A stretch of 37,580 bases of DNA from a virus, in IMG/VR virus record IMGVR_UViG_3300010299_000019, positions 1 through 37,580 of that record. One strand, 5' to 3'. Below are positions 9,629 through 30,059 of the stretch, piece by piece; within the stretch, counting starts at the first letter, position 1, and each line of letters starts with the position of its first letter. The position numbers and the translations under genes are program-made. Below the pieces are notes generated by a model. That model made no database searches, was not told the origin of the DNA, and saw only the letters and a program-made list of their open reading frames with translations.

Positions 9629-10182
9629 AACTAAAAGATTTTATAATAACAGCCTTAGTAATTGTAATTATTTATTTATTCACTTGCAATAAACCTAAAG
9701 TAATAACCGAAACTAAAACAGTTACAAGGGTTGATTCACTTTATTTTAGAGATACAATAGTACAAACAATAAAAGTTCCTAAGAAAGAGTTAGTATTTAT
9801 TAAAGAAACACCGTTTAACATAGATTTAAGCGATACCAGCGAACTTTCTGCTCGTTTTAGTACTTATGTATATGAACAAAAAGATAGTTTGTTAGAAGCT
9901 CTTATTTCAATCGAAGCAGATAAACGACCCGATAAAGTTAGCTTTGAGTATGAATTTAAGAACTTTACTTTAAGAGATTCAATTTATGTAAGAGATTCGG
10001 TTTATAATGAAGTTAAAAAGTCTTTTTTAAGTGTTGGAGCTACTTTGGTTGGTAGTAAAACTTCGTTTGGGTTTGCTCCAGTAATTCAATACAGCCATAA
10101 AAAAGGCAATAATTACTCATTAGGTTATGATTTAATTAACAATCAATTTCACGTAGGGTTTAGTAAAAAGATAAGCCATTAA
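9625..10182 (+). CDS. Membrane-anchored periplasmic protein, spanin candidate
   Basis: This 185-residue protein starts at GTG within GTGA at the end of the holin-like gene. Residues 1-21 are a hydrophobic N-terminus ending in YLFTC, so it is either a membrane anchor or a lipoprotein signal with Cys21. A charged helical middle follows. The last 50 residues are alternating polar/hydrophobic strands (SFLSVGATLVGSKTSFGFAP, then YSLGYDL and FHVGFSKK) resembling outer-membrane beta-hairpins. As last gene of the lysis cassette it could link inner and outer membranes, acting as a spanin. This is inference; no known spanin family is recognised. Confidence 0.6.
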   Translation: MKLKDFIITALVIVIIYLFTCNKPKVITETKTVTRVDSLYFRDTIVQTIKVPKKELVFIKETPFNIDLSDTSELSARFSTYVYEQKDSLLEALISIEADKRPDKVSFEYEFKNFTLRDSIYVRDSVYNEVKKSFLSVGATLVGSKTSFGFAPVIQYSHKKGNNYSLGYDLINNQFHVGFSKKISH

Positions 10183-10239
10183 AACGGCTTCCAACATCCG
10201 ATATAAAAACATCTAAAGACGTTTCATATCTTGGTGTTA
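10181..10239. repeat. 59-bp hairpin repeat, copy 1
   Basis: Copy 1 matches copy 2 (11043-11101) at 55 of 59 positions without gaps. It begins AAAACGGCTTCCAACA and ends CATATCTTGGTGTTA. Internal complementarity (AACATC/GGTGTT outer arm, ATAT/ATAT, AAACATCT/AGACGTTT inner arm with one mismatch or wobble) folds it into one imperfect hairpin. It lies just beyond the 3' end of the minus-strand Dam gene. Confidence 0.85.
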
Positions 10240-10272: not shown

Positions 10273-11031
10273 TTACGCAAAAAGAGATTGTTGTATATTT
10301 TGATAATTAGTTACAAGTATTTCTGTTCTAAAGTTTTTCAAATTACCTCTTTCTCCTATTATAATAATGTTTAAGTTTCTTTCTTTTGCTTGTTCCAAAA
10401 TAAATGGGTGGTCAAATTCACTCATTGCAAACTTGAATTTACTTTTTTCTAAACAATCAAATAAGTCTTTACTATCATTTTCGTTAAATGAGTTGCTATA
10501 ATTATCGTCAGTTCCTAAATACGGTGGGTCACAGTAAATAAAACCGTTACCAGCATTTTTATCTCTTAACTGCTTAAAAAAATCCCTAAAATCTTTATTA
10601 CTAAATTGAACGTCTTTTATAAGTTCAAATGTTTTATCTATCCTTTCTTGAAATATACTTTTAGGGTTTTCAGCCCCAAAACACATAGAAGCACCAGCAC
10701 CCATATAAGTAAAATTACTTAAAAATATGAACCTTAACGCTTGCCTTATACTTTCGGATTCTTTGTGTTTTTTCCAATGTTCTAAAAACGCATTGTGTAC
10801 AGGTAAAATTTCCATCTGTTTTTTAAGTTCTTCTTTTTGTAATGTAACTACTTGAAACAAGTTAAATACATCGTTATCAAAATCATTTACAATATTATAT
10901 TTTACTTTCGGCTTATTAAAGAACATTCCGCCAGCACCAAAAAAAGGCTCAATATACATTGTATGTTTAGGAAAATGCTTTTGTATTTCCTTTGCTATTT
11001 TGCTTTTGTTTCCCATTCTTCTTAATATCAT
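10273..11031 (-). CDS. dam: Dam-type (D12 class) adenine-N6 DNA methyltransferase
   Basis: The 252-residue enzyme transfers a methyl group from SAM to adenine in DNA. The alpha-class motif order is clear: RRMGNK at 4-9, SAM-binding EPFFGAGG at 28-35, and catalytic DPPY at 168-171. GATC specificity is typical for the family but cannot be read here. It is one of only two minus-strand genes, and both of its ends lie next to copies of the 59-bp repeat. This suggests it arrived as a unit with the repeat. It probably shields phage DNA from host restriction. Confidence 0.92.
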   Translation of the reverse strand: MILRRMGNKSKIAKEIQKHFPKHTMYIEPFFGAGGMFFNKPKVKYNIVNDFDNDVFNLFQVVTLQKEELKKQMEILPVHNAFLEHWKKHKESESIRQALRFIFLSNFTYMGAGASMCFGAENPKSIFQERIDKTFELIKDVQFSNKDFRDFFKQLRDKNAGNGFIYCDPPYLGTDDNYSNSFNENDSKDLFDCLEKSKFKFAMSEFDHPFILEQAKERNLNIIIIGERGNLKNFRTEILVTNYQNIQQSLFA

Positions 11032-11042
11032 ATCTTAAATTT

Positions 11043-11101
11043 AAAACGGCTTCCAACACCACATATCAAAACATCTAAAGACGTTTCATATCTTGGTGTT
11101 A
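11043..11101. repeat. 59-bp hairpin repeat, copy 2
   Basis: This is the second copy of the repeat at 10181-10239, in the same orientation and 862 bases away. Here the outer arm AACACC/GGTGTT is perfect. Read on the minus strand, the inner arm AAACGTCT/AGATGTTT pairs completely if one G-U is allowed. It sits just after the 3' end of the beta-class methyltransferase and just before the Dam gene, as a cassette-boundary element would. Confidence 0.85.
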
Positions 11102-20877: not shown

Positions 20878-21276
20878 ATGGCAAGAAAACCACTAACAAC
20901 AAATCAACTAATAAAGAAACTACAACCGATATTTAACAAGTATATCCGATTAAGAGATAAAAACAAGCCTTGTATTAGTTGTGGAGAATATGCAGAAGAA
21001 ATGGACGCTGGGCATTTTTGGGCAAAGTCTGGTTATAGTGGTTTAAGATTCGATGAAGATAATTGCCACGCTGAATGTGTAAAGTGCAATAGATTTGATG
21101 AAAGCCATTTAATAGGCTATGCAGAGAACTTAAAAGCTAAGATAGGCGAATATGATTATAAACTACTTCAAGAAAGAGCAGCAGAATATAAAAGAAACGG
21201 TAAAAAGTGGAGTAGAATGGAGTTAAGAGAATTGATAGAATATTATAAAGAGCTAGTAAAAAATTTGCAGGAGTAA
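20878..21276 (+). CDS. ninG: NinG-like recombination nuclease
   Basis: The 132-residue protein matches lambda NinG/Rap: PCISCGE (31-37), DAGHFWAKSGYSGLRFDEDN (43-62) and CHAECVKCNR (63-72), which together give a zinc site and HNH-like fold. NinG family proteins act on Holliday junctions and recombination intermediates. It follows the helicase operon, consistent with a role in phage recombination or in resolving DNA before packaging. Confidence 0.88.
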   Translation: MARKPLTTNQLIKKLQPIFNKYIRLRDKNKPCISCGEYAEEMDAGHFWAKSGYSGLRFDEDNCHAECVKCNRFDESHLIGYAENLKAKIGEYDYKLLQERAAEYKRNGKKWSRMELRELIEYYKELVKNLQE

Positions 21277-21315: not shown

Positions 21316-21639
21316 ATGGAAAAAGAAGAGATTGAAGAAAAAGTGCATTCAAAACTATGTCAAAGATGGTCGCACCTTTATATTGAAGGCAATCCTGATA
21401 TGACAAAGAAACAACCAAGTATATTTGCACAGGAATTTGAGAGTGTTAAAAAGGACTTAACAATAGAGAGCCAACAAAAGCAAATAGAAGAACTAAAAAA
21501 ACAATTAGAGCAGAGAGAGGAGAAATTACTTTTAGATTTACTTGAATGGTTATCAGATAGCAACGAACACAATATTAGAAAGAGTGAATTAAGTGAGATA
21601 TTAGAAGATTATTTTGATTACAAACAGATTAAACAATAA
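21316..21639 (+). CDS. Coiled-coil protein of unknown function
   Basis: The 107-residue, Glu/Lys-rich protein has a long helical segment (SQQKQIEELKKQLEQREEKL) likely to form a coiled coil. No enzymatic motif is visible. It precedes the first copy of the small membrane peptide gene by 9 bases. Confidence 0.6.
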   Translation: MEKEEIEEKVHSKLCQRWSHLYIEGNPDMTKKQPSIFAQEFESVKKDLTIESQQKQIEELKKQLEQREEKLLLDLLEWLSDSNEHNIRKSELSEILEDYFDYKQIKQ

Positions 21640-21648
21640 ATAAATTGA

Positions 21649-21747
21649 ATGAAACAACCTACTAAAATAACAATACTATTAGCAATAATAACAGGAGCAA
21701 TTATAGGCTATACTTTAGCCTTGTTAATACTTATGAATTATGGATAA
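21649..21747 (+). CDS. 32-residue membrane peptide, copy 1
   Basis: ATG 21649 to TAA 21747 encodes a single membrane helix (KITILLAIITGAIIGYTLAL) with a short MKQPT head and LMNYG tail. A near-copy at 22608-22706 encodes the same head and tail. Its end, ATGGATAA, contains the start of the PP-loop gene (21740). Because the peptide is conserved between copies mainly at the DNA level, recent duplication is likely; function is unknown. Confidence 0.6.
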   Translation: MKQPTKITILLAIITGAIIGYTLALLILMNYG

Positions 21748-22624
21748 AAAAAATATAATAGGTTGGTGGTCTGGTGGTATTACAAGTGCTGTTGCTTGTA
21801 AGTTAGCAATAGATTTGTATGGTAAAGAAAATGTGAGGATTATATTTATTGATACAATGAATGAAGATGATGATACTTATAGATTTAAAGATGATTGTTC
21901 TAAATGGTATGGAATAGAAATAGAAACAATAAGCAGTACAAAACACAAAAGTGTTCAAGCTGTCTGGCGTAGATATAAAGCGTTAAATAATGCTAAAGGA
22001 GCTGTTTGTAGTTCTGAAATGAAAAGGCAGGTGCGTGAAACTTGGGAAAAAACAAACACTTGGGAGTATCAAGTATTTGGATTTGATTTAGATGAAAGTA
22101 AAAGGGCGAAGGGTATGGCATTAAATCACCCACAAACAAAACCTATCTTCCCTTTAATGATGTATGGATTAAATAAAAAAGACTGCATTAAAATAGTTCA
22201 AAAAGAAAACATTGAAGTACCTAATATGTATAAATTAGGGTTTTTAAATAATAATTGCTTTAAGACTGGTTGTGTGCAAGGTGGAATAGGTTATTGGCAA
22301 AAGATGTATAGAGATTTTCCTAATAAATTTGATGCAATGGCTAAAATGGAGCACGAATTAACAGATGTTAAGGGTAAGCCAGTAACAATGTTGAAAGACC
22401 AAAGTTCTGGTGGTGGATTAGTGTTTTTAAAACCACATCCTAACTACCCCAACATTAAAGATATATCAATGATGAAAGGTAGAGAACCTAAACCCTTAGT
22501 TGATTGTAATGGGTTTTGTGGAGTTAATGATTTAGATGAAAGACTTGAAACAGAAAAAGAAATAAATTATCAAATGGATATATTTGATGTAATCGAAGCA
22601 AAAGCAAATGAAACCCCCAACTAA
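21740..22624 (+). CDS. PP-loop ATPase, PAPS-reductase-like
   Basis: This 294-residue protein has the PP-loop SGGITS (11-16) and the IIFIDTMNEDDDTYRF segment (34-49) typical of PAPS-reductase/DndC-type adenylating enzymes. Cysteines at about 90, 173, 178, 256 and 260 (NCFKTGC, CNGFC) could hold an iron-sulfur cluster or act in sulfur transfer. Phage members may serve in nucleic-acid or nucleotide modification or in counter-defence; the substrate cannot be told. The gene lies exactly between two copies of a 32-residue peptide gene. Confidence 0.8.
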   Translation: MDKKNIIGWWSGGITSAVACKLAIDLYGKENVRIIFIDTMNEDDDTYRFKDDCSKWYGIEIETISSTKHKSVQAVWRRYKALNNAKGAVCSSEMKRQVRETWEKTNTWEYQVFGFDLDESKRAKGMALNHPQTKPIFPLMMYGLNKKDCIKIVQKENIEVPNMYKLGFLNNNCFKTGCVQGGIGYWQKMYRDFPNKFDAMAKMEHELTDVKGKPVTMLKDQSSGGGLVFLKPHPNYPNIKDISMMKGREPKPLVDCNGFCGVNDLDERLETEKEINYQMDIFDVIEAKANETPN

Positions 22625-22706
22625 AATAACAATACTATTAGCAATAATAACAGGAACTACTTTAGCTTATTATATAGCTTTATTAATACTTATGAATTAT
22701 GGATAA
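22608..22706 (+). CDS. 32-residue membrane peptide, copy 2
   Basis: This encodes KITILLAIITGTTLAYYIAL with head MKPPT and tail LMNYG, a near-copy of 21649-21747. The DNA is identical over about 36 bases from ACTAAAATAACAATACTATT and over the last 24 bases; copies are 959 bases apart. The copy also keeps an ATGGATAAA start remnant that now runs only 9 codons, as if a second PP-loop gene once began here. It overlaps the PP-loop gene by 17 bases. Confidence 0.6.
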   Translation: MKPPTKITILLAIITGTTLAYYIALLILMNYG

Positions 22707-22718
22707 ATCATTAAAACT

Positions 22719-23105
22719 ATGGAATTAAAAGCAACAGAATTAAGAGTAAATAACTATCTTGAATTTAAAGATACTATATTTCAAGTTGAGATAATAACCT
22801 TAACTGGTGGATTACAGATATACAGAATAGATTATGATAGCGGATATCAATTTATTATCGGACAAGTAAAAGACTTTAAACCAATACCACTAACAGAAGA
22901 ATGGTTGATACGTTTTGGGTTTGATAAAAAAGGTGAGCAATATTTTAAGGGATATTGTTATGAGATTGGAATGATGCTTAACTCAAATAATGAATGGTAT
23001 ATTGATGATGGAATAAGGACGTTTGATTTACCACTTAAATACGTACACCAATTACAAAACCTTTACCACTCATTAACAGGAGAAGAACTAACAATAAAAG
23101 AGTAA
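22719..23105 (+). CDS. Conserved Bacteroidota phage protein of unknown function
   Basis: In this 128-residue protein MELKATELRVNNYLEF at the start, PIPLTEEWLIRFGFDK in the middle and YVHQLQNLYHSLTGEEL at the end form a pattern I associate with small proteins common in Bacteroidota phages and prophages. It is alpha/beta, soluble and last in the early arm, just upstream of the terminase promoter. No function is known to me. Confidence 0.7.
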   Translation: MELKATELRVNNYLEFKDTIFQVEIITLTGGLQIYRIDYDSGYQFIIGQVKDFKPIPLTEEWLIRFGFDKKGEQYFKGYCYEIGMMLNSNNEWYIDDGIRTFDLPLKYVHQLQNLYHSLTGEELTIKE

Positions 23106-28276: not shown

Positions 28277-28871
28277 CAGAAATAATATAAGCGACTTTGC
28301 ATTTATACATCCTAACGCAATAATAGGTAAAGGAAACACTATTGAAGAAGGTGTTATTATACGTTCAAATGTAATAATAGGAGATAATAACCATATATCG
28401 CCTTATGTTACTATCGGTTTAGCTGGAGAAGTAAGAGGAGAAAACGAAATAAAAGGAAGGGTTGTAATAGGCAATAATAATGTAATAAGAGAATTTACAT
28501 CAATACAAAGCCCTCAAAGATTTGACTTCACACAAATAGGTAATAACTGTTTTATAATGGAGAAAAATCATATATCACACGATTGTATAGTTGGTAATAA
28601 TGTAACAATAGCCCCAATGGTTACTTTAGGTGGCTGTGTTAATATAGGCGATTATACTAATCTTGGAATAAACTGCTCAATACATCAACGATTAACAATA
28701 GGAGAAAGTGTAATGGTTGGTATGGGTAGTATAGTAACAAAAGACATTCCTAATTATGAAAAGTGGTTTGGAACTCCAGCACAATTTAAAGGATATAATC
28801 TTATTGGATTAAAAAGAAGATACCCAGATAAAACAGAAGAAGAATTAATTAAGTTATGTGCGGAATATTAG
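28269..28871 (+). CDS. LpxA-like hexapeptide-repeat acyltransferase
   Basis: The 200-residue left-handed beta-helix protein is the LpxA type. It has IHPNAIIGKGNTIEEGVII (13-31), HISHDCIVGNN (101-111) matching the catalytic HxxHDC of LpxA (His104), and GTPAQFKGYNLIGLKRR (168-184) matching the LpxA C-terminal element. Cellular LpxA is about 260 residues, so this is a trimmed form. LpxA acylates UDP-GlcNAc; here a sugar-nucleotide for glycan modification is likely. The ATG at 28269 overlaps the previous stop; an upstream TTG (28251) is less likely. Confidence 0.85.
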   Translation: MDNRNNISDFAFIHPNAIIGKGNTIEEGVIIRSNVIIGDNNHISPYVTIGLAGEVRGENEIKGRVVIGNNNVIREFTSIQSPQRFDFTQIGNNCFIMEKNHISHDCIVGNNVTIAPMVTLGGCVNIGDYTNLGINCSIHQRLTIGESVMVGMGSIVTKDIPNYEKWFGTPAQFKGYNLIGLKRRYPDKTEEELIKLCAEY

Positions 28872-29341
28872 CAGTCTTAGGAGATTACAGATATAAAGAT
28901 ATACCAGAAGCATTACGTGAACGTGGGCGTGATTCTGAAGGAATGTATCAAGATAACTATGTCCAACTAATGCAAACACGCCTACATATTACTGGTGGGC
29001 ATATTGATTTACCATATCAACAAGAAGAATTTGTTTTGTTGTTTAATGGCGAGATATATAATTATAGAGAATTTGCACACAACGAATACAAAGCCATTGT
29101 AGAAGCATATAAAAGTGATAGGATGAATAAATTAGATGGTCAGTATGCTATTATCATTTATAATAAAAACACACACTTAATAGACGTTTATTTAGATGAG
29201 TTAAGAATACACTCTTTATATAAAGGAGAGTACAATGGAAGCATTATATACTCATCTAATTTAAGAAGCTTACCAAAGATAGAATTTAACGAAATACAGC
29301 ATAGGGGTTATGGCAACATCACAAAGCAAGAAGTTTTATAA
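28856..29341 (+). CDS. Class II glutamine amidotransferase (AsnB N-terminal half)
   Basis: This 161-residue protein releases ammonia from glutamine. The nucleophile is Cys2 (MCGILAVLGDY), exposed after Met removal, with RGRDSEG (23-29) and LLFNGEIYNYREF (61-73) as conserved glutamine-site motifs and KLDGQYAIIIY later. It is shorter than the usual AsnB N-terminal domain. The synthetase half is encoded by the next gene, overlapping by 32 bases, so the two proteins probably act as one split asparagine-synthetase-like amidotransferase. Confidence 0.88.
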   Translation: MCGILAVLGDYRYKDIPEALRERGRDSEGMYQDNYVQLMQTRLHITGGHIDLPYQQEEFVLLFNGEIYNYREFAHNEYKAIVEAYKSDRMNKLDGQYAIIIYNKNTHLIDVYLDELRIHSLYKGEYNGSIIYSSNLRSLPKIEFNEIQHRGYGNITKQEVL

Positions 29342-30059
29342 TGATTTTCTAAAAGCAATAAATAAAAGAATTACCAATAGAGTTGTTGTACCTGTTAGTG
29401 GTGGGTTAGATTCTACATTAATTGTAAAAGCGTTAAATGATTTAGATTTAAAGTACTTTGTTAAGTATGTAACAATGTCAGAAAATGATTATGCTTTAGA
29501 AGTTGCGGATAGATACAAGATAAGGTTAGAAATATTTGAGCCTAAAATAGAACAGGGAGATTTAAGAAAGATTGTAGGAATATTAGAAGAACCGTTTTAT
29601 GCACCAAGTGTTAACTATTATCTTTATAAGAAGATTAACGAGATGGGTGGGCGTGTTTCTTTTAGTGGTTTGGGTGCTGATGAATTATTTGGTGGATATG
29701 ATTACTATAATACTGATAATTACCCACGCGGTTTATTTAAGGAGATTGAAGCAAAAACAAACAAAGAAAAAAAAGAACAAGATATACACTTCTTAACACA
29801 CCACCATTTAAGAGAAAATGAAAAGATAGGGTTATATTGGCAGGTAGAGGGGCGTTATCCATTCTTAGATAAAGAAGTTCGCAAGTATAATGACATTGGT
29901 AAGTCATTAATAAAAGAAACACTATTACAAGACTTTAACGATGGTTTTGTTAATCGTAAAAAAGAGGGTTTTAGATTAACCAATATAACAGACCGTTCTA
30001 AGCAAAGGCTACAATATTTAGAGCAATTAGCAATATTTAGAGATATATTTAAAATTTAG
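29310..30059 (+). CDS. Asparagine-synthetase-type ATP-PPase (AsnB C-terminal half)
   Basis: The 249-residue protein has the PP-loop SGGLDST (30-36), FSGLGADELFGGYDYY (118-133), EGRYPFLDKEV and NRKKEGF, all AsnB C-terminal signatures. It would adenylate a carboxylate and use ammonia from the amidotransferase made by the preceding gene. In sugar operons such enzymes amidate uronic acids or similar sugars; asparagine synthesis is the alternative. Separate genes for the two halves are unusual for AsnB. Confidence 0.88.
   Translation: MATSQSKKFYNDFLKAINKRITNRVVVPVSGGLDSTLIVKALNDLDLKYFVKYVTMSENDYALEVADRYKIRLEIFEPKIEQGDLRKIVGILEEPFYAPSVNYYLYKKINEMGGRVSFSGLGADELFGGYDYYNTDNYPRGLFKEIEAKTNKEKKEQDIHFLTHHHLRENEKIGLYWQVEGRYPFLDKEVRKYNDIGKSLIKETLLQDFNDGFVNRKKEGFRLTNITDRSKQRLQYLEQLAIFRDIFKI

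Follow-up and report, generated by a model that had tools for sequence, protein, structure and literature searches.

In the Island3/Brujita mycobacteriophages, a repeat of ~50-60 nt in two adjacent genes (67/68) accompanies an extra gene, and a relative that lacks this gene has one recombinant copy of the repeat; general recombination at boundary sequences was proposed (PMC3029335). The same paper credits Clark et al. 2001 and Susskind and Botstein 1978 with the proposal that lambdoid boundary or linker sequences, located at module borders, are sites of homologous exchange. A further class of elements, the promoter-early-stem-loop cassettes (PeSLs) of phage T4, are repeated short intergenic elements that mediate gene shuffling, as cited in PMC4503421.

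The locus described here lies in a 37.6-kb virus contig (the window, i.e., the whole stretch of DNA that was analysed), from a Bacteroidota-type phage, in the variable region between helicase and terminase, and with high probability represents a mosaic seam at which two alleles of a short sequence were joined by recombination. The Island3/Brujita case is its closest published likeness (PMC3029335). However, the Island3/Brujita repeat corresponds to the 3' end of two genes, whereas that of the window comprises a whole membrane mini-ORF, from which the inserted gene takes start and stop alike, and its two copies are distinct alleles found in other phages. With the lambdoid boundary sequences, as summarised in PMC3029335, the locus shares a short conserved sequence at a module border, here beside a NinG gene. 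It differs from them in that the phage is of the Bacteroidota type, that the borders lie inside gene ends and that they have been read from sequence alone. The PeSLs, in the terms in which PMC4503421 cites them, are promoter/terminator elements while the window repeat is a coding frame without such structure.

The window carries a Bacteroidota-type phage gene set, whose best protein matches among isolates are to Croceibacter, Cellulophaga and Flavobacterium phages. A helicase-like gene is followed by a dense series of small genes and then by the terminase genes. The series comprises, in this order, NinG, a 107-aa ORF, the mini-ORF TM1, a PP-loop gene, the mini-ORF TM2, a nine-codon frame and a phrog_10066 gene, after which comes the terminase (Table 1). 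NinG, the PP-loop gene and the repeat are all absent from G001, the syntenic backbone relative of the window (TerL 74 %, a head-region protein 81 %). Since the backbone relatives G001 and G002 lack the entire module, the region is variable and the ancestral order is not visible from them. Elsewhere in the window (28856-30059), an ORF with a glutamine-amidotransferase domain overlaps the next, separate ORF, which has the PP-loop motif SGGLDST; the pair looks like an asparagine-synthase-like protein in two halves, both of which are conserved in G001, and adjoins putative glycosyltransferase-like genes.

Table 1. Coordinates of the features discussed in the text (window unless another record is named).
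Feature	Record	Position	Strand	Remark
NinG/Rap Holliday-junction nuclease gene	window	20878..21276	+	
107-aa ORF	window	21316..21639	+	left neighbour of repeat copy 1
Direct repeat copy 1	window	21648..21748	+	contains TM1
Mini-ORF TM1	window	21649-21747	+	32 aa, one membrane span
PP-loop ATPase gene	window	21740..22624	+	PAPS-reductase-like, PF01507, phrog_424
Direct repeat copy 2	window	22607..22707	+	contains TM2
Mini-ORF TM2	window	22608-22706	+	32 aa
Nine-codon frame MDKSLKLWN and stop	window	22699..22728	+	deletion scar of 139-aa gene (phrog_12560)
128-aa gene	window	22719..23105	+	phrog_10066
Second direct repeat copy A	window	10179..10239		61 nt, left of Dam-type methyltransferase gene
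Dam-type methyltransferase gene	window	10273-11031	minus	
Second direct repeat copy B	window	11041..11101		right of Dam-type methyltransferase gene
Membrane-tail ORF	L092 (Croceibacter phage P2559Y)	5667-5807		
Membrane-tail ORF	L139			
Membrane-tail ORF	L162			
Membrane-tail ORF	L169			

No direct repeat in the window is larger or stronger than the one that brackets the PP-loop gene (101 nt, 86 % identical, self-BLAST E ~1e-27). The spacing of 959 nt and the repeat itself agree with the original prediction. The description of the two membrane ORFs as near-identical conceals a mosaic pattern: 14 differences separate the copies, 11 of them packed into 27 nt with identical runs of 36 and 24+ nt on either side, both of which were reproduced in 0 of 20,000 shuffles. 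Neither copy folds better than its shuffles (z -0.62 and +1.33). At the end of TM1, the last 8 nt, ATGGATAA, overlap the PP-loop gene and provide its start at 21740, and the equivalent overlap in copy 2 opens the nine-codon frame at 22699-22728, both as first described. The PP-loop gene takes its stop from the repeat as well, a point absent from the original prediction. Copy 2 overlaps it by 17 nt and provides its final codons (...KANETPN and stop), the tail NETPN with its stop being the first TM2 codons read in a different frame. In PP-loop relatives the protein stops on the motif INYQ.D(M/L/I)F or a little behind it, with differing tails, so the tail in the window has been altered at the joint. 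Both mini-ORFs are probably translated, given that length, start and frame are conserved across four sequences.

The check that had been suggested was positive, in that some relatives have one copy and lack the PP-loop gene. They were found only via the 107-aa neighbour protein and relaxed mini-ORF patterns; a strict degenerate mini-ORF pattern gave no match in viral_contigs or genome_contigs, nor did tblastn with the 32-aa mini-ORF protein against phages. Three contigs carry one mini-ORF each: L193/G010 (69.5 kb), L194/G011 (51.0 kb) and L195/G009 (27.5 kb). The PP-loop gene and a terminase matching that of the window are absent from all three, which are contig records and may be fragments. 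In G010 and G011 the mini-ORF lies between a lipoprotein-like gene and a helix-turn-helix gene, and in G009 between a DNA methyltransferase-like gene and a 139-aa gene. Across the four known contexts, the left neighbour is thus different each time and the right one is of at least three kinds. Copy 1 differs from G009 (type-1 allele) at 5 of the first 91 positions and copy 2 from G010/G011 (type-2 allele) at a single one, compared to 14 between the two copies. All 11 informative sites pair copy 1 with G009 and copy 2 with G010/G011, with 0 conflicts. This partition indicates that two pre-existing alleles were brought together, rather than that a recent duplication occurred in place.

One could imagine that the two mini-ORFs form an old tandem pair, from which G009 lost type 2 and G010/G011 lost type 1, while in the window lineage the PP-loop gene entered between the two. 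No rooted history can be drawn from the four known mini-ORF sequences, which do not distinguish such a pair from allele mixing. However, separate losses would be needed, no contig has the pair without the PP-loop gene, and the G009 chain of mini-ORF, 139-aa gene and phrog_10066 gene is complete, with no trace of a second copy, so that we consider this scenario improbable.

The same G009 chain accounts for the nine-codon frame behind copy 2. In G009, the 139-aa ORF (phrog_12560) takes its start from the terminal ATGGATAA of the mini-ORF; it begins with MDKLISMTDFVL, ends with LTLTDKALKLWN and a stop (DKALKLWN) and overlaps the start of the phrog_10066 gene by its last 10 nt. In the window, MDKSLKLWN occupies the same place and has the same 10-nt overlap with the phrog_10066 gene. 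Within this frame the head ATGGATAAA and the tail GATAAATCATTAAAACTATGGAATTAA join at a common GATAAA, a joint of only 6 nt; at the protein level, the head MDK is fused to the tail DK-S/A-LKLWN. Among all loci collected, GATAAA(T/G)CATTAAAACTATGGAATTAAAAGC is present only in the window and in G009. The 139-aa family matches phrog_12560 and has relatives in 36 phage records. A distant homologue in Flavobacterium phage lillamy9-1 (37 % identity over residues 3-136) starts with MKLISMTDFVL and ends with LTPNAIKRIFG (SLTPNAIKRIFG), so both head and tail belong natively to this family and the window represents the deleted state. The nine-codon frame is therefore the deletion scar of a 139-aa gene and not a relic of the PP-loop start. 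The original prediction was right to see a relic here; it erred on the origin, as what remains is the start of the 139-aa gene, of which the tail has been retained as well.

These observations also bear on one of the two explanations first offered for the locus, namely that the mini-ORF and the first PP-loop codons were copied in place, downstream of the PP-loop gene. The copies are indeed equal in length and in their ends, both finishing in ATGGATAAA. Yet over 91 nt the identity is 99 % between copy 2 and G010/G011 and 95 % between copy 1 and G009, as opposed to 85 % between the copies, i.e., these are two alleles found singly in other phages, and the codons behind copy 2 belong to the 139-aa gene and not to the PP-loop gene. 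An in-place duplication is thus very improbable.

Evidence for the mosaic seam extends beyond the repeat. BLAST segments shared between the window and G009 in this region fall on gene starts or stops in seven of eight cases, compared to 1.95 expected (p=0.0002). The phrog_10066 protein is only 37 % identical overall to its G009 homologue, whereas the DNA at the start and stop ends of the gene is 88-95 % identical; 40 of 40 nt are identical across the stop, the start is near-identical and the interior about half identical. Of the NinG gene, G009 has kept the first 17 codons and the last ~75 nt, with other genes between. Inside this replaced NinG gene (L195 8776-9663), two ORFs resemble, by eye, HNH-type nucleases, and these are possibly the agents of the replacement. 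The start of the 107-aa ORF is common to the window and G009/G010, and in its 3' half (21477-21638) the DNA identity to G010/G011 is 97.5-98 %. Conserved ends around replaced interiors are the expected trace of exchange at conserved gene ends. The mini-ORF is common to G009-G011, which are otherwise different phages, its one-copy relatives lack the bracketed gene, and the borders of the shared G009 segments coincide with gene ends. It is in effect a conserved boundary sequence with genes on either side that vary between phages. We read the seam as having arisen by homologous exchange at conserved gene ends within a variable, nin-like phage region. Among the proteins scanned in the middle region, where NinG/Rap is present, none was recognised as a phage recombinase.

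The PP-loop protein is a clear member of the phrog_424 / PF01507 family (E 4e-57 and 5e-9, with a PF01507 score of 36.7 bits vs a cut-off of 22.5). Residues S11, G12, G13, T15 and S16 of the PP-loop motif SGGxTS do not vary between the window protein and five relatives. It also matches the PADLOC model of SspD from phosphorothioation systems (E 1e-13), a hint at DNA phosphorothioation-like chemistry. The nearest PP-loop relatives (79-84 %) are found in other contexts with no mini-ORF alongside, and none of the mini-ORFs beside other PP-loop genes is homologous to that of the window. In four phages, an ORF with a membrane tail and the motif GT(P/A)QE(S/M)IDE overlaps or directly precedes the PP-loop start (Table 1). 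It is unrelated to the window-type membrane ORF, whose presence next to PP-loop genes is not a general rule.

PP-loop genes have a direct repeat on both sides unusually often, namely at 10 of 83 testable loci, while only 2 of 204 controls do (Fisher p=1e-4); the controls are other genes of the same loci and several PP-loop loci are related, so that the true weight of this difference is less than the p value suggests. A 38/33-nt repeat in L117 consists of leader and start codon and has the same form as the window repeat, and ATGGATAA starts the PP-loop genes in L118, L143 and L110 too. In L191, L186, L158 and L141/L144, attC-like repeats (TAACG... / ...GTTA) flank the PP-loop gene as if it were an integron cassette. 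In L121, L122, L124 and L125 it is bracketed by 41-57-nt repeats with TAnnTTTG, a sequence that resembles the Bacteroidota promoter -7 box, and each gene seems to bring its own promoter copy.

That a cassette sits at the repeat, the second explanation first offered, is borne out by the single-copy relatives and by the different gene behind the mini-ORF in G009, which together identify the unit as a movable insert at the repeat. We find it hardly credible that this insert arrived by site-specific integration, integron-like or transposon-like, with the repeat as target. Direct repeats, in part attC-like, do often flank PP-loop family genes, but the 101-nt copies fold like shuffles, show no integron attC hairpin, have no inverted ends and are part of a protein-coding frame, and the PP-loop gene lies alone between them, without a transposase.

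The same phage offers a second case of a bracketed gene. The sole other significant self-match of the window is a 61-nt direct repeat (93 %) around a Dam-type methyltransferase gene, of which G010 has a single copy, with other sequence in place of the methyltransferase gene. Copy B of this second repeat forms an attC-like hairpin with AACACC/GGTGTT arms (z -3.6, minus strand), which suggests that the 61-nt repeat may be an integron-like site; copy A folds no better than shuffles.

The least credible explanation is an assembly chimera, in which the alleles of two co-occurring phages would have been merged by the assembler at the run that they share, since, even though the window is a virus contig record with alleles from different phages, their longest shared exact run is 36 nt, which is short relative to usual assembly k-mers, the frames and overlaps at the joints are all coherent, and the flanks fit one phage, as judged by synteny with G001.

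Under homologous exchange at gene ends, the older layout would have been that of G009, with mini-ORF, 139-aa gene and phrog_10066 gene in successive overlaps of 8-10 nt. Exchange with another phage at short conserved gene ends would have brought the PP-loop gene behind a type-1 mini-ORF and a type-2 mini-ORF behind the PP-loop gene, leaving two alleles 959 nt apart. Since ATGGATAAA natively starts the 139-aa gene and some PP-loop genes, it would be a plausible joining point. The 139-aa gene would have been lost between two GATAAA copies, with nine codons left behind. Recombination between the present copies would excise the PP-loop gene cleanly, one intact mini-ORF remaining. We infer the order of events and the enzymes, and likewise the direction of the joining events, because the records searched, from which those very close to the window are withheld, held no donor in which a PP-loop gene lies between a type-1 and a type-2 mini-ORF.

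The end of the mini-ORF serves as the start of two genes, the 139-aa gene in G009 and the PP-loop gene in the window. It is conceivable, albeit unlikely, that the mini-ORF is kept because it works as a plug-in translational coupler: its tiny membrane peptide would be translated, and the ATGGATAA at its end would offer a start to whichever gene is recombined behind it. If so, phages would gain and lose accessory genes at the mini-ORF while expression is kept. For annotators the locus carries a caution, as a tiny "start-codon relic" may be what is left of another gene that was deleted. As a whole, it adds a clean new case to boundary-sequence mosaicism and does not amount to a new system, and its seams can still be read from the two alleles, the single-copy relatives, a scar with a known parent gene and the sharing of gene ends in unrelated phages.
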